DNA from: an uncultured Bacteroidales bacterium
GTDB taxonomy: Bacteria > Bacteroidota > Bacteroidia > Bacteroidales > FEN-979
Assembly (NCBI GenBank): GCA_903845055.1
Contig: CAIMWF010000062.1
Coordinates: forward strand, 62,001 to 126,000
Direction of reading: 5' to 3'
DNA length: 64,000 nucleotides
The notes under the pieces are model-generated. The model searched no databases, was not told the DNA's origin, and worked only from the letters and a program-made list of their open reading frames with translations. Positions 10,717 to 17,984 of the stretch are shown here, in pieces. Position 1 is the first letter of the stretch. Every line of letters begins with the position of its first letter. Position numbers and translations under genes: made by a program.

Positions 10717-13470
10717 ATGAAAAACCTCAGAATTTATCTGCTTGCCTTTGCGGCGGTGGTTACCCTGGCAGGATTTTCCTGGTTAAGCTTCAGCCTCTAC
10801 CAGAAAATTCACCGGCCTGCCGAATCGCCATTCAATGCAATTCCGGGGAACACCGCCCTGATCATCCAGATCAATAAGGCAGGAAACCTGCTGGAAGAGA
10901 TGAACCGGTCGAATCTTTTGTGGAAGGCCCTCTCCCGCTTCCCCGGGATCAGCGTGGTCAGGAATGAGCTGCAGTTTGTCGACTCGGCCGGCCGAAAAAA
11001 CGAAAAGATCTGTAAAATCTTTCAGCAATACAATGTACTGGTTGCCATTACACTGAGCGGACGGACCAATTTCGGGGCATTGTACATCACCACCGTGTCA
11101 GGCTCCAGTCCAGAATCGGATATTTCCGATTACATCCAAGAAATCAGTTCGGGCCGGGCAATTATCTCCGAAACCCCATATTCCACCACCAGTCTGAAAA
11201 GAATCCTGTACAAGGGAAGCCGCGACTCATTTTATTTTGCCGTTATCAAGGGTGTCTTCATGGGTAGTTTTCACGCCGACCTTGTCAAGAGGGCCGTCGA
11301 CCGGCTATCGCTCAACACTCCCATGGCCGCATCGGCTGGCTTCAGGAAGGTGGAGGCCTCCGCAGGCAAAAAAGTGGATGCAAACATCTTTGTCAACTAC
11401 CGGTTTTTTTCACTGGTCCTCTCAAAGCTTACCCGTGACGAGAATCTGCCGGAATTGCTGAAACTCTCCAATTTTGCCGACTGGAGCGGGCTCGACCTGA
11501 TGATTAAAAAGGACGAGCTTCTTTTTAACGGTATTACGGTCGCTTCCGACAGCAGCCAGCAATTCCTGGCGCTTTTCAACGACCAGAAACCCCAGAAGAA
11601 GGAACTGACCTGCATCATCCCCGAAAAGGTCCGCTACTTTGCCACCTACGGTTGGAGCGACGCTTCCCGCTTCAGCCAGCGTTTCCAGAACCGTACGCCG
11701 CACGATGAGGGATTTGCAGCGGAACAGAACCTCGCAACCACCCTCATCGACCGGTTCCAGCTTAACATTGGCGAATATTTCCTTCCCTGGATCGGGCACG
11801 AAGGATGCCTCTTTACACTCGCGGAGCGCGAATCCTCGGCCGATGTGAACTATTCGGCTTTCAGCTCCCAGGACACACTGCTCACCCGATCGCTGCTGTT
11901 CGCCCTTGCCGATACCATCGGGATCAGGGCCGACTCCATCCTTTTCAGGGGACACAAGATCTACCGGATGGACCTTCCGGCCTTTATCCCAACCCTTTTT
12001 GGTGAACTTTTTTCCAAGGTTGATGTTAAATGTTTCACTTTCCTGAAAGGTTACGTGGTTTTCGCACGGCAGCCCAAAGACCTTGAACAGGTGATCAGCG
12101 CTGTATCTGAAAATACAACCATTGACAAAGATAAAACCTACAGGGATTTTGAAGTAAGCCTGTCGGAAACATCGAATGTATACTATTATTTCAGCACGCG
12201 AAACGCCCTGCCGTCCCTTAAAAGTGTAATGAGCCAGGAGCTGGCCGACCAGCTGAACCCGGTCATGGACAGCCTGCGCAAATTTGAATCGGTTGCTTTC
12301 CAGTTCAGCAATGCCGACGGAAAATTCTATTCGAACATCTTCTTGCGTTACAATCCGAACCTGGGGAAGGAAGGCCCCCTGGAATGGCAGGCAAAACTCG
12401 ACACCAGCATTTCAGGGCAACCCAGGATATTTCAAGGGGGCACAGGCAGCGACCCCATGGTGACGGTGACCGATTGCATCGGTAATCTCTATGTCATTGA
12501 TCCGCAGGGACATGTCCAATGGCGCGTTCATCTCATGGGGAACCTTCTGGGTGAGATCCATGGCATCAGGCTTCCCGGAAGCGACTCGCTCTACCTGCTC
12601 TTTAACACCGATACCCATTTATATCTTCTGCACGCAGACGGACGGTTTGCAGAAAAATTCCCGATGCGTTTTCCCATCCACGCAACCAATGGTCTATCCA
12701 TTACGGACTGGGAAAATAATCGGGATTACCATATTTTTGTCGCCTTCCAGGATAACCGTGTCTACAGCTTTTCCCTGGGCGGCACTTCCGATCCCGGCTG
12801 GAAACGCCCGGGACTGAAGGAAGAGATCACTGAACCCCTTGCAAGTTACGTGATCGGGAACAGGGAATACCTGGTTATTTCGGGTCACACAGGTACAACA
12901 GCCTTTGTCGGCCGCACAGGTGTTCCACGGCTTACCCCGGGCCCACGGTTTCTGCGGGCGTCAAATTCAGGAATTTATCCCAACAAAACCGGTAAACGGG
13001 GTGAATTCGTAACCACCGACCCCGACGGGAAGGTGATCTTCCTGCAACAAAACGGAAAGACAACCGAGGTCACCCTGAATCTTTTTTCAGCGGCTCACCG
13101 GTTTTACTATGAAGACATCACGGGCAACGCTCAGGATGAGTTCATTTTCATCGACCGGAACCGGGTCTATTACTACGGAAATAATTTTAAACCCGTATAC
13201 TCCTATATGTTCCGTCATGCCAACACCTGCCCGCCCTTCCTGCTGCACGGTGCCGACGGAAAAACCATGGTTGGTTTCGTCATGCCCGAAACAAACGAAC
13301 TATACCTGTTCGACCGCTACGGTTACCGTGAACTCGAATCGGGTATCCGCGGGAACACGCCTTTCGACATCGGGAATCTGGAACCGGGAAACAAGCAGCG
13401 GCTTGTGGTGGGTGCCGGGAAATATCTCAAATGCTTCCGGTTAGCGCAACCGGAGCCTGGTTCCAGGTAG
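10717..13470 (+). CDS. Large membrane-anchored protein (DUF3352-like N-terminal region, beta-propeller-like C-terminal region)
   Basis: N-terminal TM anchor then IPGNTALIIQINKAGNLLEE; C-terminal WRVHLMGNLLGE...DNRVYSFSLGG repeat-like blades. Start moved to MKNLRIYLL. Confidence 0.5.
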   Translation: MKNLRIYLLAFAAVVTLAGFSWLSFSLYQKIHRPAESPFNAIPGNTALIIQINKAGNLLEEMNRSNLLWKALSRFPGISVVRNELQFVDSAGRKNEKICKIFQQYNVLVAITLSGRTNFGALYITTVSGSSPESDISDYIQEISSGRAIISETPYSTTSLKRILYKGSRDSFYFAVIKGVFMGSFHADLVKRAVDRLSLNTPMAASAGFRKVEASAGKKVDANIFVNYRFFSLVLSKLTRDENLPELLKLSNFADWSGLDLMIKKDELLFNGITVASDSSQQFLALFNDQKPQKKELTCIIPEKVRYFATYGWSDASRFSQRFQNRTPHDEGFAAEQNLATTLIDRFQLNIGEYFLPWIGHEGCLFTLAERESSADVNYSAFSSQDTLLTRSLLFALADTIGIRADSILFRGHKIYRMDLPAFIPTLFGELFSKVDVKCFTFLKGYVVFARQPKDLEQVISAVSENTTIDKDKTYRDFEVSLSETSNVYYYFSTRNALPSLKSVMSQELADQLNPVMDSLRKFESVAFQFSNADGKFYSNIFLRYNPNLGKEGPLEWQAKLDTSISGQPRIFQGGTGSDPMVTVTDCIGNLYVIDPQGHVQWRVHLMGNLLGEIHGIRLPGSDSLYLLFNTDTHLYLLHADGRFAEKFPMRFPIHATNGLSITDWENNRDYHIFVAFQDNRVYSFSLGGTSDPGWKRPGLKEEITEPLASYVIGNREYLVISGHTGTTAFVGRTGVPRLTPGPRFLRASNSGIYPNKTGKRGEFVTTDPDGKVIFLQQNGKTTEVTLNLFSAAHRFYYEDITGNAQDEFIFIDRNRVYYYGNNFKPVYSYMFRHANTCPPFLLHGADGKTMVGFVMPETNELYLFDRYGYRELESGIRGNTPFDIGNLEPGNKQRLVVGAGKYLKCFRLAQPEPGSR

Positions 13471-14415
13471 GGGCTCCGCATTTTCCGAAAGCGGGTTTCT
13501 TTTGTACAGCATTTTTAATTTTATGCCATATCCCTGTGCAATCCGTGCGAGAGTCTCCCCGCTCTGCACCACATGGGTGGCATGGGCGGCTTTTCGGCGT
13601 TTTGCATGCAGGTATATGATCTGACCAGGATGCAGGTTGCTGTCGTTCAAATCGTTAAACTTCATCAACTTCCTGATCGAAATATTGAAAGCGCTGCTTA
13701 ACCTTGCCAAATTGTCTTCCTTTCCGGCCAGGACCAGGCGGAGACCGTTGTTAATATATACCTGGTGACCATCGGGGGCCATTTCTGCCAGACTGAAATG
13801 GCTGACCCACGGATTTGACGAAATTTCCCCGCCGTTCATGGCAAGTGAATCCGCGAACGCCTTGCCGAAGTCTCCGCTGTCGAACCTGAAAAGTTTGTAG
13901 GTTTCAATCGTTTTGATCAGCTGACCGGCATAAGCGGGATTGGTAGCATATCCGGCATTCTTCAGTCCCAGGGCCCATCCCGCGTAATCGGTTATCCTGA
14001 GATGGAACAAGGATTTGTAACGGTCCCGCTCCACCAGGAAGGATGAGTGATCGCGAAAACACTGCTCAGCCGAACTGTACTTTCTGAAACATTCGTTCGG
14101 ACGGTCATCATCCTTGTACATGGTCTCGCCCGTCCAGTCCTTATGGCACTTGATCCCGAAATGGTTGTTGGCCTGAACCGCCAGCGGACTCTGGCCCGCA
14201 TTTGACTCCAGGATCCCCTGTGCGAGGGTGATGCTTGCCGGGATTTTTGATACCGCCATTTCATGAACCGCAATCTCCCGGTACCTGACAATATATCGCA
14301 ACACCATGGTTTTATAGTCGGCCCGCTGGGCCACCACCGGGGGGGTCAACGATAACAGGAACAGCATCGTGATGCTGATTTTCAGGAAAGGAATAGCCGG
14401 GCAGAATGTCTTCAT
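13441..14415 (-). CDS. Glucosaminidase-domain protein with C-terminal LysM (peptidoglycan hydrolase)
   Basis: SITLAQGILESNAGQSPLAVQANNHFGIKCHKDWTGETMYKDDD and LysM-like VVQSGETLARIAQGYGIKLKMLYKRNPL; signal peptide. Confidence 0.9.
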   Translation of the reverse strand: MKTFCPAIPFLKISITMLFLLSLTPPVVAQRADYKTMVLRYIVRYREIAVHEMAVSKIPASITLAQGILESNAGQSPLAVQANNHFGIKCHKDWTGETMYKDDDRPNECFRKYSSAEQCFRDHSSFLVERDRYKSLFHLRITDYAGWALGLKNAGYATNPAYAGQLIKTIETYKLFRFDSGDFGKAFADSLAMNGGEISSNPWVSHFSLAEMAPDGHQVYINNGLRLVLAGKEDNLARLSSAFNISIRKLMKFNDLNDSNLHPGQIIYLHAKRRKAAHATHVVQSGETLARIAQGYGIKLKMLYKRNPLSENAEPLPGTRLRLR

Positions 14416-14566: not shown

Positions 14567-15961
14567 TCAATGTGTCACAAGGTCGCGGAACCGCCGGCCC
14601 CGTTCCTCGAAATTCCGGAATTCGTCATAGCTTGCCGCCGCGGGCGACAACAGGCATGCATGGCCCGGCAAAGTTTCGCGGAATGCGATCTCCCTGAAAT
14701 CGTCAAACCGGTTTATATAAAAAAGTTTCTGATCAGGATTCCCGAACTTCTCCAGGAGCCCGCCGATGCGCCTGCCGGCTTCGCCTGCCAGGATGATGTT
14801 CCTGATGCCCGATTTTCCAAGGAACGACGCCAGGTCATCGTATTCAATCCCCCGGTCGAATCCCCCGGCGACAAGTGTATCCACCTTCGGGATCGCCCTG
14901 ACCGCCTCCATGCAGGCTTCGGGGATGGTGGCGATCGAGTCGTTGTAAAAATGTATCTTCCCGAATTCACCGACATATTCAAGACGGTGTTCGAGCCCTT
15001 TAAACGTCGCAACAGCGTCACTTACCGATTCAGGATCAATCCCATGGATCATGGCAACGCTGATGGCCGCCAGGATGTTTTTCAGGTTGTGTTCCCCGCG
15101 CAGGAAGCGGTCCTGGTGGATCTGCCAAACCGGGACAGTATCCCTGCCATTGGAAAAGCAGGCCCATCCGTCGCGAAGAAAAGAACCCGGACCCGTTTCC
15201 CCGGCAACCGAAAACGGGTAACATCTCCTGTGGCTGCAAAAGGGCTGCACATGACCCGAAACAAGCGCATCATCCATATTGTAAACAAGAAAATCCTCTT
15301 CCTGCTGGTACCGGGTGACATTCACTTTGGCCTGCTGGTATTGACCATAGCTTTCATAGGCATCGAGGTGTTCCTGGAAAAGGTTCAGCAACACCGAAAT
15401 GTGGGGCGCAACGGTAATGAATTCGAGTTGGTGCGACGACAGTTCAAACACAACAATTGTTTCGGGCCCGACCAGGTCGGCAATGTGAAAAACCGGGCTG
15501 CCAATGTTCCCGGCAAGGAGGGCGTCCTTTCCTGCTGTTTTCAGGATGTGGTGAATGAGGCTTGCGGTCGTGCTTTTGCCCTTGGTGCCGGTGACGCCGA
15601 TCACCCTGCCGGCAAAACACTCAAGAAAAATTTCGGTTTGCGAGGTGATCTGATCCCTTCTTATCCGGCCGCCCGGGTGGTTCTGATCCTGCAGCAGTTG
15701 CCAGACAGGGATCCCGGGAGACCGGAATATGGCATCGAAACCCTGCAGTTGTTCCAGGTAACCAGGCCCGGTGATCAGGGCAACCGCATCGTCATGAGCG
15801 ATCAGCGGGTTGTCGCGGATGGCTTCACTGGCATCGGCAATCGTAAGGCGTTTACCGGGAAACGCCTCGCGCAGCCGGGAATAACTTGCCTGACCTTCAC
15901 GGCCGAATCCAAGCAGAACAATCGATTTGCCCGTGAACCGTTTCCTGAGATATTCAATCAT
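14567..15961 (-). CDS. murD: UDP-N-acetylmuramoyl-L-alanine--glutamate ligase (MurD; possibly L-Glu-specific MurD2 type by context)
   Basis: VLLGFGREGQASYSRL, VIGVTGTKGKSTTASLIHHIL, FNDSIATIPEACMEAV motifs; 4-nt ATGA overlap with upstream gene. Confidence 0.88.
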   Translation of the reverse strand: MIEYLRKRFTGKSIVLLGFGREGQASYSRLREAFPGKRLTIADASEAIRDNPLIAHDDAVALITGPGYLEQLQGFDAIFRSPGIPVWQLLQDQNHPGGRIRRDQITSQTEIFLECFAGRVIGVTGTKGKSTTASLIHHILKTAGKDALLAGNIGSPVFHIADLVGPETIVVFELSSHQLEFITVAPHISVLLNLFQEHLDAYESYGQYQQAKVNVTRYQQEEDFLVYNMDDALVSGHVQPFCSHRRCYPFSVAGETGPGSFLRDGWACFSNGRDTVPVWQIHQDRFLRGEHNLKNILAAISVAMIHGIDPESVSDAVATFKGLEHRLEYVGEFGKIHFYNDSIATIPEACMEAVRAIPKVDTLVAGGFDRGIEYDDLASFLGKSGIRNIILAGEAGRRIGGLLEKFGNPDQKLFYINRFDDFREIAFRETLPGHACLLSPAAASYDEFRNFEERGRRFRDLVTH

Positions 15962-17361
15962 GACCGGTCATTTTTCAACACCCTGTTTTGAAGCGCATTC
16001 ACCAGTACCTGCTGGAATCCGGGCTGAAGGTGGTGTTCTGTTTCAACATGCAGCAAAGCCTTTTCAAATTCAACCCCCGCGTATTGCCGGTATGCATCCG
16101 TATGGATGTAATACCTTAGCAGGAAGGGCAGTCCGGACGCATCCCGCTGCCGGATGGCTTCACAGAGTGCCAGGTTGACCTCCCGGATGGTTCCCACGCA
16201 ATCGAACGGTTTCTCTTCGGCAATTCCGGTAACCTGGTCGAGGAACAACTGCAGGGACGGATCGTCGAGAAGGTCCTTCCCGAAGATAGCGGCAAGGTTT
16301 TTATCCGGAAGAAACGGCGAGAGCATGATCCAGGTAAAGAGGCATTTGGCACATTGTCCGCACCATGAATCGGTTTTGCTGCCGGCGTTGCAACTTTTAA
16401 AAACCGCGTGGTATCTGGGGAGATCCGAAAAAATGGAAGCTATCTGCAATTCGCTGAGCGGGCGCAGGAAGCTGAAATAATTGATCTCTTCGCTGATCCA
16501 CCGGTGCACATATGTCCGGAACCCTGACTCAAAACCAAGCGACTTCGAATACTGGTGGTTGATCGTGGTTCCACCGATGGTCGGTTCGCTGGCACTTGAT
16601 TCGTTTGACAAAGCAATATGGCGGTGTCCTGACAAAATGGCTGAGAGGACTGTTATAAATGCCAGGAGTGCCGAGAAGGGGGTGTGACCGTTCAGAAAGC
16701 CCTCATCGTTCAATTGAAGCAACAACGGATCGAGGGTCCGGCGGATTTCGATGAATTCCTCCCCGGAAAAACCCATTGCCGCGATTGTTTCAATGCTGGC
16801 CGCCCGCGGGTTCATGATCAGTGGGATACTTCCCGGCAGTTTTCCAAGCAGTTCAAGAGTCACGGCCGAATCCTTGCCCCCGCCAACGGGAATGATCACC
16901 CCGGCATCGGGATAAAATTTTTCTTTGGGGGCAACCGCATCAGAAGCAACCTCAACCTGCATAAAATTGTCTTTCGTTGCAGGGATGGAATTGAGGTAAA
17001 AAAACTCCCCCAGCCCGTTGAAATAGAGTTTTTTCCACCAGGTTACCTGGTCGGGATGCAGTGAAAATGGCCGGATGATCAGCTTTGGTGCGCAGGCCGC
17101 CTTCCAGTAACTGATCAGTTCGATCATGCCGATGTTGAAAACGATGTTATCGAGATGCCCGGCAATCGCCCCATCGGGAAGGAAAAAGGATTTCCTGGGG
17201 ATAAAAAGCGTGGGATGAAAATAAAACTGGCCGGCAAGGTTGAAGGTGAAACGGATATCAAGTCCTTCGGGGTTAAGGGCAATTTCCTGTTTTTCAAAGA
17301 CAAAATAAGGGAATTGCCGGCGTAACCGGTTATATTTATCCTCGCTGCTTGACCTGGCCAT
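15958..17361 (-). CDS. murL: MurL-like UDP-N-acetylmuramoyl-L-alanyl-L-glutamate epimerase (PP-loop-type protein)
   Basis: VIIPVGGGKDSAVTLELLGK, NHQYSKSLGFESGFRTYVHRW, FSFLRPLSELQIASIF, WCGQCAKCLFTWIMLSPFL motifs plus translational coupling to murD. Confidence 0.72.
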   Translation of the reverse strand: MARSSSEDKYNRLRRQFPYFVFEKQEIALNPEGLDIRFTFNLAGQFYFHPTLFIPRKSFFLPDGAIAGHLDNIVFNIGMIELISYWKAACAPKLIIRPFSLHPDQVTWWKKLYFNGLGEFFYLNSIPATKDNFMQVEVASDAVAPKEKFYPDAGVIIPVGGGKDSAVTLELLGKLPGSIPLIMNPRAASIETIAAMGFSGEEFIEIRRTLDPLLLQLNDEGFLNGHTPFSALLAFITVLSAILSGHRHIALSNESSASEPTIGGTTINHQYSKSLGFESGFRTYVHRWISEEINYFSFLRPLSELQIASIFSDLPRYHAVFKSCNAGSKTDSWCGQCAKCLFTWIMLSPFLPDKNLAAIFGKDLLDDPSLQLFLDQVTGIAEEKPFDCVGTIREVNLALCEAIRQRDASGLPFLLRYYIHTDAYRQYAGVEFEKALLHVETEHHLQPGFQQVLVNALQNRVLKNDRS

Positions 17362-17423: not shown

Positions 17424-17984
17424 ATGGAAAATCAACGCATAAAGCCCAAACAGGGAAGCATCCTGATCTCTGAGCCGTCGCTGCGCGATTTCTATTTCAG
17501 GCAGTCGGTCATCCTGCTTGCCGAGCACAATGATGAAGGCACCTTCGGGGTGATCATCAACAAGCCCATCGAAGCCCGTCTGAAAGACATCATCAAAGGT
17601 TTCCCCGCTTACAACCTGCCGGTTTTCCTTGGCGGCCCGGTGAAAACCGACAGCATTTTTTACATCCATACGCATGCCGGGGTCGATCATTGCGTGCCGA
17701 TCATGCAGGGGCTTTACTGGGGAGGCGACCTTGAGATCATCAGGTCGATGATGAAACGCAAGGAGATCCTCCCGAACGACATCCGTTTTTTTGTCGGTTA
17801 TTCAGGCTGGTCGCCCAGGCAGCTTGACCGGGAAATCAGCGAGAAATCATGGGTCCTTTCACAAACCACCGCCGGCGAAGTGATCATGGAACATCCTGAA
17901 AACCTCTGGAGCAACTACCTGAAAAACATGGGGCAGGATTACGCCATCTGGGCAAATTATCCCGCCGATCCCGCCTTCAACTGA
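17424..17984 (+). CDS. YqgE/AlgH family protein (UPF0301)
   Basis: PKQGSILISEPSLRDFYFRQSVILLAEHNDEGTFGVIINKP and GYSGWSPRQLDREI motifs. Confidence 0.92.
   Translation: MENQRIKPKQGSILISEPSLRDFYFRQSVILLAEHNDEGTFGVIINKPIEARLKDIIKGFPAYNLPVFLGGPVKTDSIFYIHTHAGVDHCVPIMQGLYWGGDLEIIRSMMKRKEILPNDIRFFVGYSGWSPRQLDREISEKSWVLSQTTAGEVIMEHPENLWSNYLKNMGQDYAIWANYPADPAFN

Follow-up and report, generated by a model that had tools for sequence, protein, structure and literature searches.

A MurL-MurD2 pair in Bacteroidales as a probable racemase-free source of peptidoglycan D-glutamate, with the canonical MurD apparently reduced to its C-terminal domain

Introduction

The closest described counterparts of the genes considered here are those for MurL and MurD2, whose published distribution takes in Gamma- and Alphaproteobacteria and some actinobacteria (PMC8788868; PMC5808125). 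MurL has been described as a protein without known domains that requires ATP and releases AMP (PMC8788868). The use of L-glutamate (L-Glu) has been mapped by mutagenesis of Xanthomonas oryzae MurD2 and of the MurD enzymes of Escherichia coli and Streptococcus mutans to a glutamate at Asp182, an arginine at Lys348 and the loss of Lys319, and the K319T change makes E. coli MurD accept L-Glu (PMC8788868). Here we describe a murL-murD2 locus in a stretch of 64,000 nucleotides (the window; contig CAIMWF010000062.1, positions 62,001 to 126,000) from an uncultured Bacteroidales bacterium, the source genome, whose assembly (GCA_903845055.1) consists of 175 contigs and is 95% complete.

The best explanation of this locus, to which we assign a probability of roughly 0.9 from sequence comparison, is that the operon supplies peptidoglycan D-glutamate (D-Glu) without a racemase. 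L-Glu would be attached by MurD2 and then flipped by MurL, and the pair would replace the glutamate racemase MurI, which would have been lost from the lineage. With ligation taken over by MurD2, the canonical murD in the mraY-ftsW slot of the division and cell wall (dcw) cluster would have lost its ligase half, leaving the C-terminal domain.

The murL-murD2 locus

The upstream open reading frame (ORF) of the pair (15958-17361, minus strand) encodes 467 amino acids and the downstream one (14567-15961, minus strand) 464, the murL stop and the murD2 start overlapping by the four bases ATGA (15958-15961, minus strand). The 467-aa protein, which can be aligned with X. sacchari MurL, matches the NCBIfam model NF041275 (MurL_Xanthomonadales) at E 2.9e-73 and 247 bits, with residues 61-444 on profile positions 48-434. 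The curated cut-off of this model, 700 bits, was set for the Xanthomonadales equivalog, and X. sacchari MurL scores 836 bits; the window MurL falls under the cut-off and would thus be missed by automatic annotation with NF041275. The 464-aa protein is a MurD by TIGR01087 (308 bits, cut-off 212, E 1.2e-91), and chance is excluded as the source of either profile match. An initial annotation made from the DNA alone had proposed a MurL-like protein followed by an overlapping murD; both proposals are borne out, and the MurL motifs that it quoted, PVGGGKDS among them, are all present in the translation.

The same annotation predicted a MurD of the L-Glu type, and the window protein does carry all three published determinants: Glu197 at the E. 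coli Asp182 position (15371-15373, minus strand), Ile343 at the Lys319 position (14933-14935, minus strand) and Arg370 at the Lys348 position (14852-14854, minus strand). When 41 MurD2s from the source genome and its relatives were compared with 63 full-length dcw-cluster MurDs of the order, these residues were E, I and R in 41/41 of the former and D, K and K in 63/63 of the latter; the isoleucine also occurs in X. sacchari MurD2, which shares the EHLD, NDSI..T and DRG motifs with the window protein. In the MurD tree the Bacteroidales MurD2s and X. sacchari MurD2, the latter on a long branch, form one clade (support 99/98) apart from E. coli MurD and the Bacteroidales dcw MurDs. An L-Glu-type ligase is thus supported by the specificity residues, and these MurDs, which automatic annotation names D-Glu ligases, are probably given the wrong stereochemistry.

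MurD2 directly follows MurL in nearly all of the 123 loci collected, and gene order and overlap are the same in X. sacchari as in the window. In 11 of the 123 (L316, L317, L318, L151, L168, L174, L179, L182, L195, L198 and L202) the two proteins form a single ORF of 885-996 aa, natural fusions that the initial annotation had not foreseen. The linkage can also break: about 7 kb lies between the genes in L071 (genome G009) and 1.7 kb in L079 (G017), and in L097/L098 (G037) they are on separate contigs. MurL homologues without an adjoining MurD are found on two Pseudonocardia plasmids (L273:5689-7083, 322 bits; L274:5764-7164), next to genes for a WD40 protein and a sigma factor.

Sources of D-glutamate and distribution across Bacteroidales

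Models for Asp/Glu racemase and glutamate racemase gave no match in the source genome, with control genomes positive, and the D-amino-acid transaminase model gave there only a 35-bit partial match in a 355-aa frame; such matches occur in nearly all relatives and are read as branched-chain aminotransferase. Among 61 relatives, MurL was found in 41, MurI above the cut-off in 17, and both in none. Over 247 genomes of the order the corresponding numbers are 84, 148 and 0 (MurL was counted in 85, one being a weak fragment at a contig edge), an exclusion with a Fisher probability of 7e-51, uncorrected for phylogeny; about 15 of the 247 have neither. These results agree with the suggestion of the initial annotation that MurI might be dispensable, and for this order they fill in the spread of the pair in Bacteroidota, which it had left open; the published distribution does not include that phylum (PMC8788868).

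Public genomes, when scanned, yielded at least 573 relatives, the best 80 of which are Bacteroidota assemblies, mostly labelled Bacteroidales and including Lentimicrobium and Marinifilum. Among 396 genomes of the phylum, mostly of other orders, MurL was found only in the source genome. A literature search limited to open-licence papers found no report of MurL-MurD2 in Bacteroidota, and its large occurrence in Bacteroidales appears unreported. The racemase-free route would thereby extend to about a third of the sampled Bacteroidales genomes, and for this reason MurI would not be a universal target in the order.

G505 and G606 (family f130; L215 and L211) fall inside the MurL clade in a tree of MraY and FtsW, lack MurL, MurD2 and a good MurI (G505 has just a weak match, 6.6e-13) and retain a full-length canonical MurD; they may represent a reversal. 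In G051 (98% complete) neither MurL nor MurI was found and MurD was matched only once; the slot between mraY and ftsW (L113:2423-3058) is occupied there by a very divergent MurD C-domain without the SPACAS motif.

A stand-alone MurD C-terminal domain in the division cluster

A search of the source genome for a second murD, as the initial annotation had proposed, recovered only a remnant that it had not anticipated. The dcw cluster reads murE-mraY-X-ftsW-murG/murC, where X (contig C59 of the source genome G000, 15764-16312; equivalent to L029:6764-7312) encodes 182 aa corresponding to the MurD C-terminal domain (TIGR01087 positions 267-440; Foldseek match to MurD at 1.6e-14). The N-terminal UDP-binding and central ATPase domains, both required of a functional ligase, are physically absent, the mraY stop lying 5 nt before the ATG of X, and there is no other full-length MurD in the genome besides MurD2. 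A frameshift or assembly error was considered as the origin of the short MurD and rejected, the short form being found in 48 genomes with the mraY stop 1-80 nt upstream of its start in nearly all.

All members of the source family whose slot was found carry the short form; in three assemblies of the same genus the slot was not recovered. Outside the family short forms are scattered, and most MurL-positive genomes have a full-length dcw MurD beside MurD2. The MraY and FtsW tree, a quick one in which several nodes are open and some branches long, requires no fewer than 11 changes between the short and the full state; one of them falls within a genus (G041 and G552 versus G648, support 98-99), and others separate sister genera (G503/G604 and G653/G048). 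The idea that the full-length dcw MurDs of MurL-positive genomes are dead enzymes was dropped, since the checked catalytic residues are intact in 44/44 (two have Asp at N271). In five MurL-positive genomes (G056, G557, G507, G608 and G662) only one MurD match was found, of MurD2-like score, and the dcw MurD may have been lost entirely.

Since truncation was seen almost only in MurL-positive genomes, the stand-alone domain could belong specifically to the MurD2-MurL route, as a subunit that binds MurL or MurD2, for instance. This is unlikely, because most MurL-positive genomes outside the source family lack the truncation, the internal-start signature described below is also found in MurI-positive genomes without MurL, and a truncated form also occurs in G051, where MurL and MurI were both not found.

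Less probable still is that the 182-aa domain is nothing but a pseudogene in decay, its reading frame maintained because mraY and ftsW are translationally coupled. When 63 full-length and 48 short forms were compared, the sites relaxed in the short forms were the ligase sites H267, N268, N271, K319, T321 and K348 with their neighbours, and the relaxation at K348, T321, N268 and N271, together with the strong degradation of the short forms of G051, G037 and G039, is what decay would produce. It would not produce framework residues at 85-100% identity, the fixation of the Bacteroidales-typical R30, N69, W72, E76, W84, A139 and V140, a length of 181-185 aa and a start position constant in nearly all 48 genomes, or the recurrence of the same short form over those changes of state. 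The ratio of nonsynonymous to synonymous substitution (dN/dS) within the genus is likewise about 0.09 for X, as for intact enzymes (0.08 for MurD2 and 0.11 for MurL), a rough ratio as dS is near saturation. The loss of constraint at ligase sites with retention of the framework suggests that ligase activity is gone and that something else is selected, and X is therefore best regarded as probably under purifying selection for a non-ligase role. Our favoured guess is that of a scaffold or regulator acting with the mraY and ftsW products.

An internal start within murD

The short forms start at one shared methionine, which is conserved in 93% of 103 full-length Bacteroidales MurDs. After correction for the amino acid and for the codon use of the gene, third codon positions just after this methionine are enriched in A more than elsewhere in murD, exceeding even the true 5' start, and the four other conserved MurD methionines show no such enrichment. 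The two highest peaks of this enrichment in the murD of MurI-positive genomes are the true start and the internal methionine, which in the full-length murD of MurL-positive genomes is the top peak; aligned MurD2s show no such peak. This synonymous-site pattern is that expected of a translation start within murD and suggests an ancestral internal start, so that the C-domain may long have been a second product of murD. We consider it an even chance that Bacteroidales murD harbours a second gene within it, whose conserved internal start gives a separate C-domain protein acting in wall synthesis or division other than as a ligase, and that, once MurD2-MurL had taken over ligation, the long form was lost by many independent deletions, down to exactly this retained ORF. 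No description of an internal start in a Mur ligase was found in the literature searched. The detached domain suggests that MurD has a second, non-catalytic function within the division cluster, one that is directly testable in these lineages because they have split the C-domain from catalysis.

A predicted QueC-like fold and QueC-like motifs in MurL

A further feature that had not been foreseen is the apparent likeness of MurL to QueC. An alignment with E. coli QueC leaves three elements invariant: the GG.DS loop, the NHxxS motif and a set of four cysteines. The first lies in PVGGGKDS (16867-16890, minus strand), an SGGxDS-like ATP-pyrophosphatase (PP-loop) motif common to X. sacchari MurL and E. 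coli QueC, in which G160-S165 are invariant in 15 MurL proteins; the second is NHQYSK (16543-16560, minus strand), with N268, H269 and S272 invariant across MurL and QueC; and the third is C324-x9-C334-x2-C337-x2-C340 (16342-16392, minus strand), a predicted Zn site. In QatC, a member of the QueC family, Zn is bound by C-x19-C-x2-C-x2-C (PMC13279940).

A confident AlphaFold model of MurL (predicted local distance difference test 89.7, predicted template modelling score 0.90) was compared with viral structures, where the best match was a phage QueC (E 1.3e-4, probability 1.00, target template modelling score 0.62) and more QueCs were among the top ten. The Pfam QueC model matched 3 of 15 MurL members weakly. 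QueC activates a carboxylate by adenylation with ATP. The same step is proposed for MurL, and it fits the ATP-to-AMP chemistry of the enzyme. There is thus good reason to regard MurL as probably QueC-like in predicted fold and motifs and, from these, to infer a mechanism, which the QueC link makes testable.

Of the neighbouring genes, a glucosaminidase with LysM domains (13441-14415, minus strand) lies directly downstream of murD2 and is possibly co-transcribed with it, and an AlgH-like (DUF179) gene (17424-17984, plus strand) is divergent from murL, with 62 bp between them.

Weighing the proposed route

Several observations weigh against a racemase-free route through MurD2 and MurL, for which we infer the catalytic activities and the QueC-like mechanism. 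Identity to the X. sacchari enzymes is about 29% for MurL and 27% for MurD2. At 95% completeness, one missing gene in the source assembly is weak proof of loss, though 40 other MurL-positive relatives agree. MurL presence falls mostly in one large clade, so that the exclusion of MurI comes from few independent events. The catalytic residues kept by the full-length dcw MurDs of MurL-positive genomes are unexplained if no free D-Glu is made; our guess is that these enzymes persist through use of recycled D-Glu. As for the fold, significance for QueC was reached only against predicted models of viral proteins, fold and sequence searches of the PDB with MurL gave nothing significant, and hhalign against the single E. 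coli QueC was too weak to count.

It is very improbable that the pair acts on another substrate, such as a secondary metabolite or a modified cell-wall peptide, with D-Glu made by an unrecognised racemase and joined by canonical MurD: identity below 30%, the 44 genomes with an intact canonical MurD and the Pseudonocardia homologues without MurD would suit it, but MurI above the cut-off is missing from every MurL-positive genome, the specificity residues are exactly those of MurD2, and in the source genome MurD2 must supply the step, there being no other full-length MurD.

Comparison with known systems

X equals the C-terminal domain of canonical MurD, as known from E. coli and the Bacteroidales dcw cluster, but has lost the substrate lysines along with the UDP-binding and ATPase domains. 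The proposed internal start giving a separate C-domain is like that of genes such as Spa33, whose internal in-frame starts yield a C-terminal isoform (PMC6925163) and from which murD would differ in the repeated deletion of its long form. MurL appears to resemble the QueC/QatC/Cap9 PP-loop family in predicted fold, and shares with it the SGGxDS loop, NHxxS and the Cys4 Zn-type motif, but carries some 140 additional residues at its N-terminus and an extension at its C-terminus, and it would epimerise where QueC builds a nitrile. The MurD2-MurL system of X. oryzae (XOO_1320/XOO_1319) is alike in MurL family, in the L-Glu determinants of MurD2 and in the absence of MurI, and X. sacchari in gene order and overlap; the system described here differs from that of Xanthomonas in its Bacteroidales host, in an identity of only 27-29%, in the occasional fusion into one protein, and in the persistence of a remnant or intact canonical MurD in the dcw cluster.
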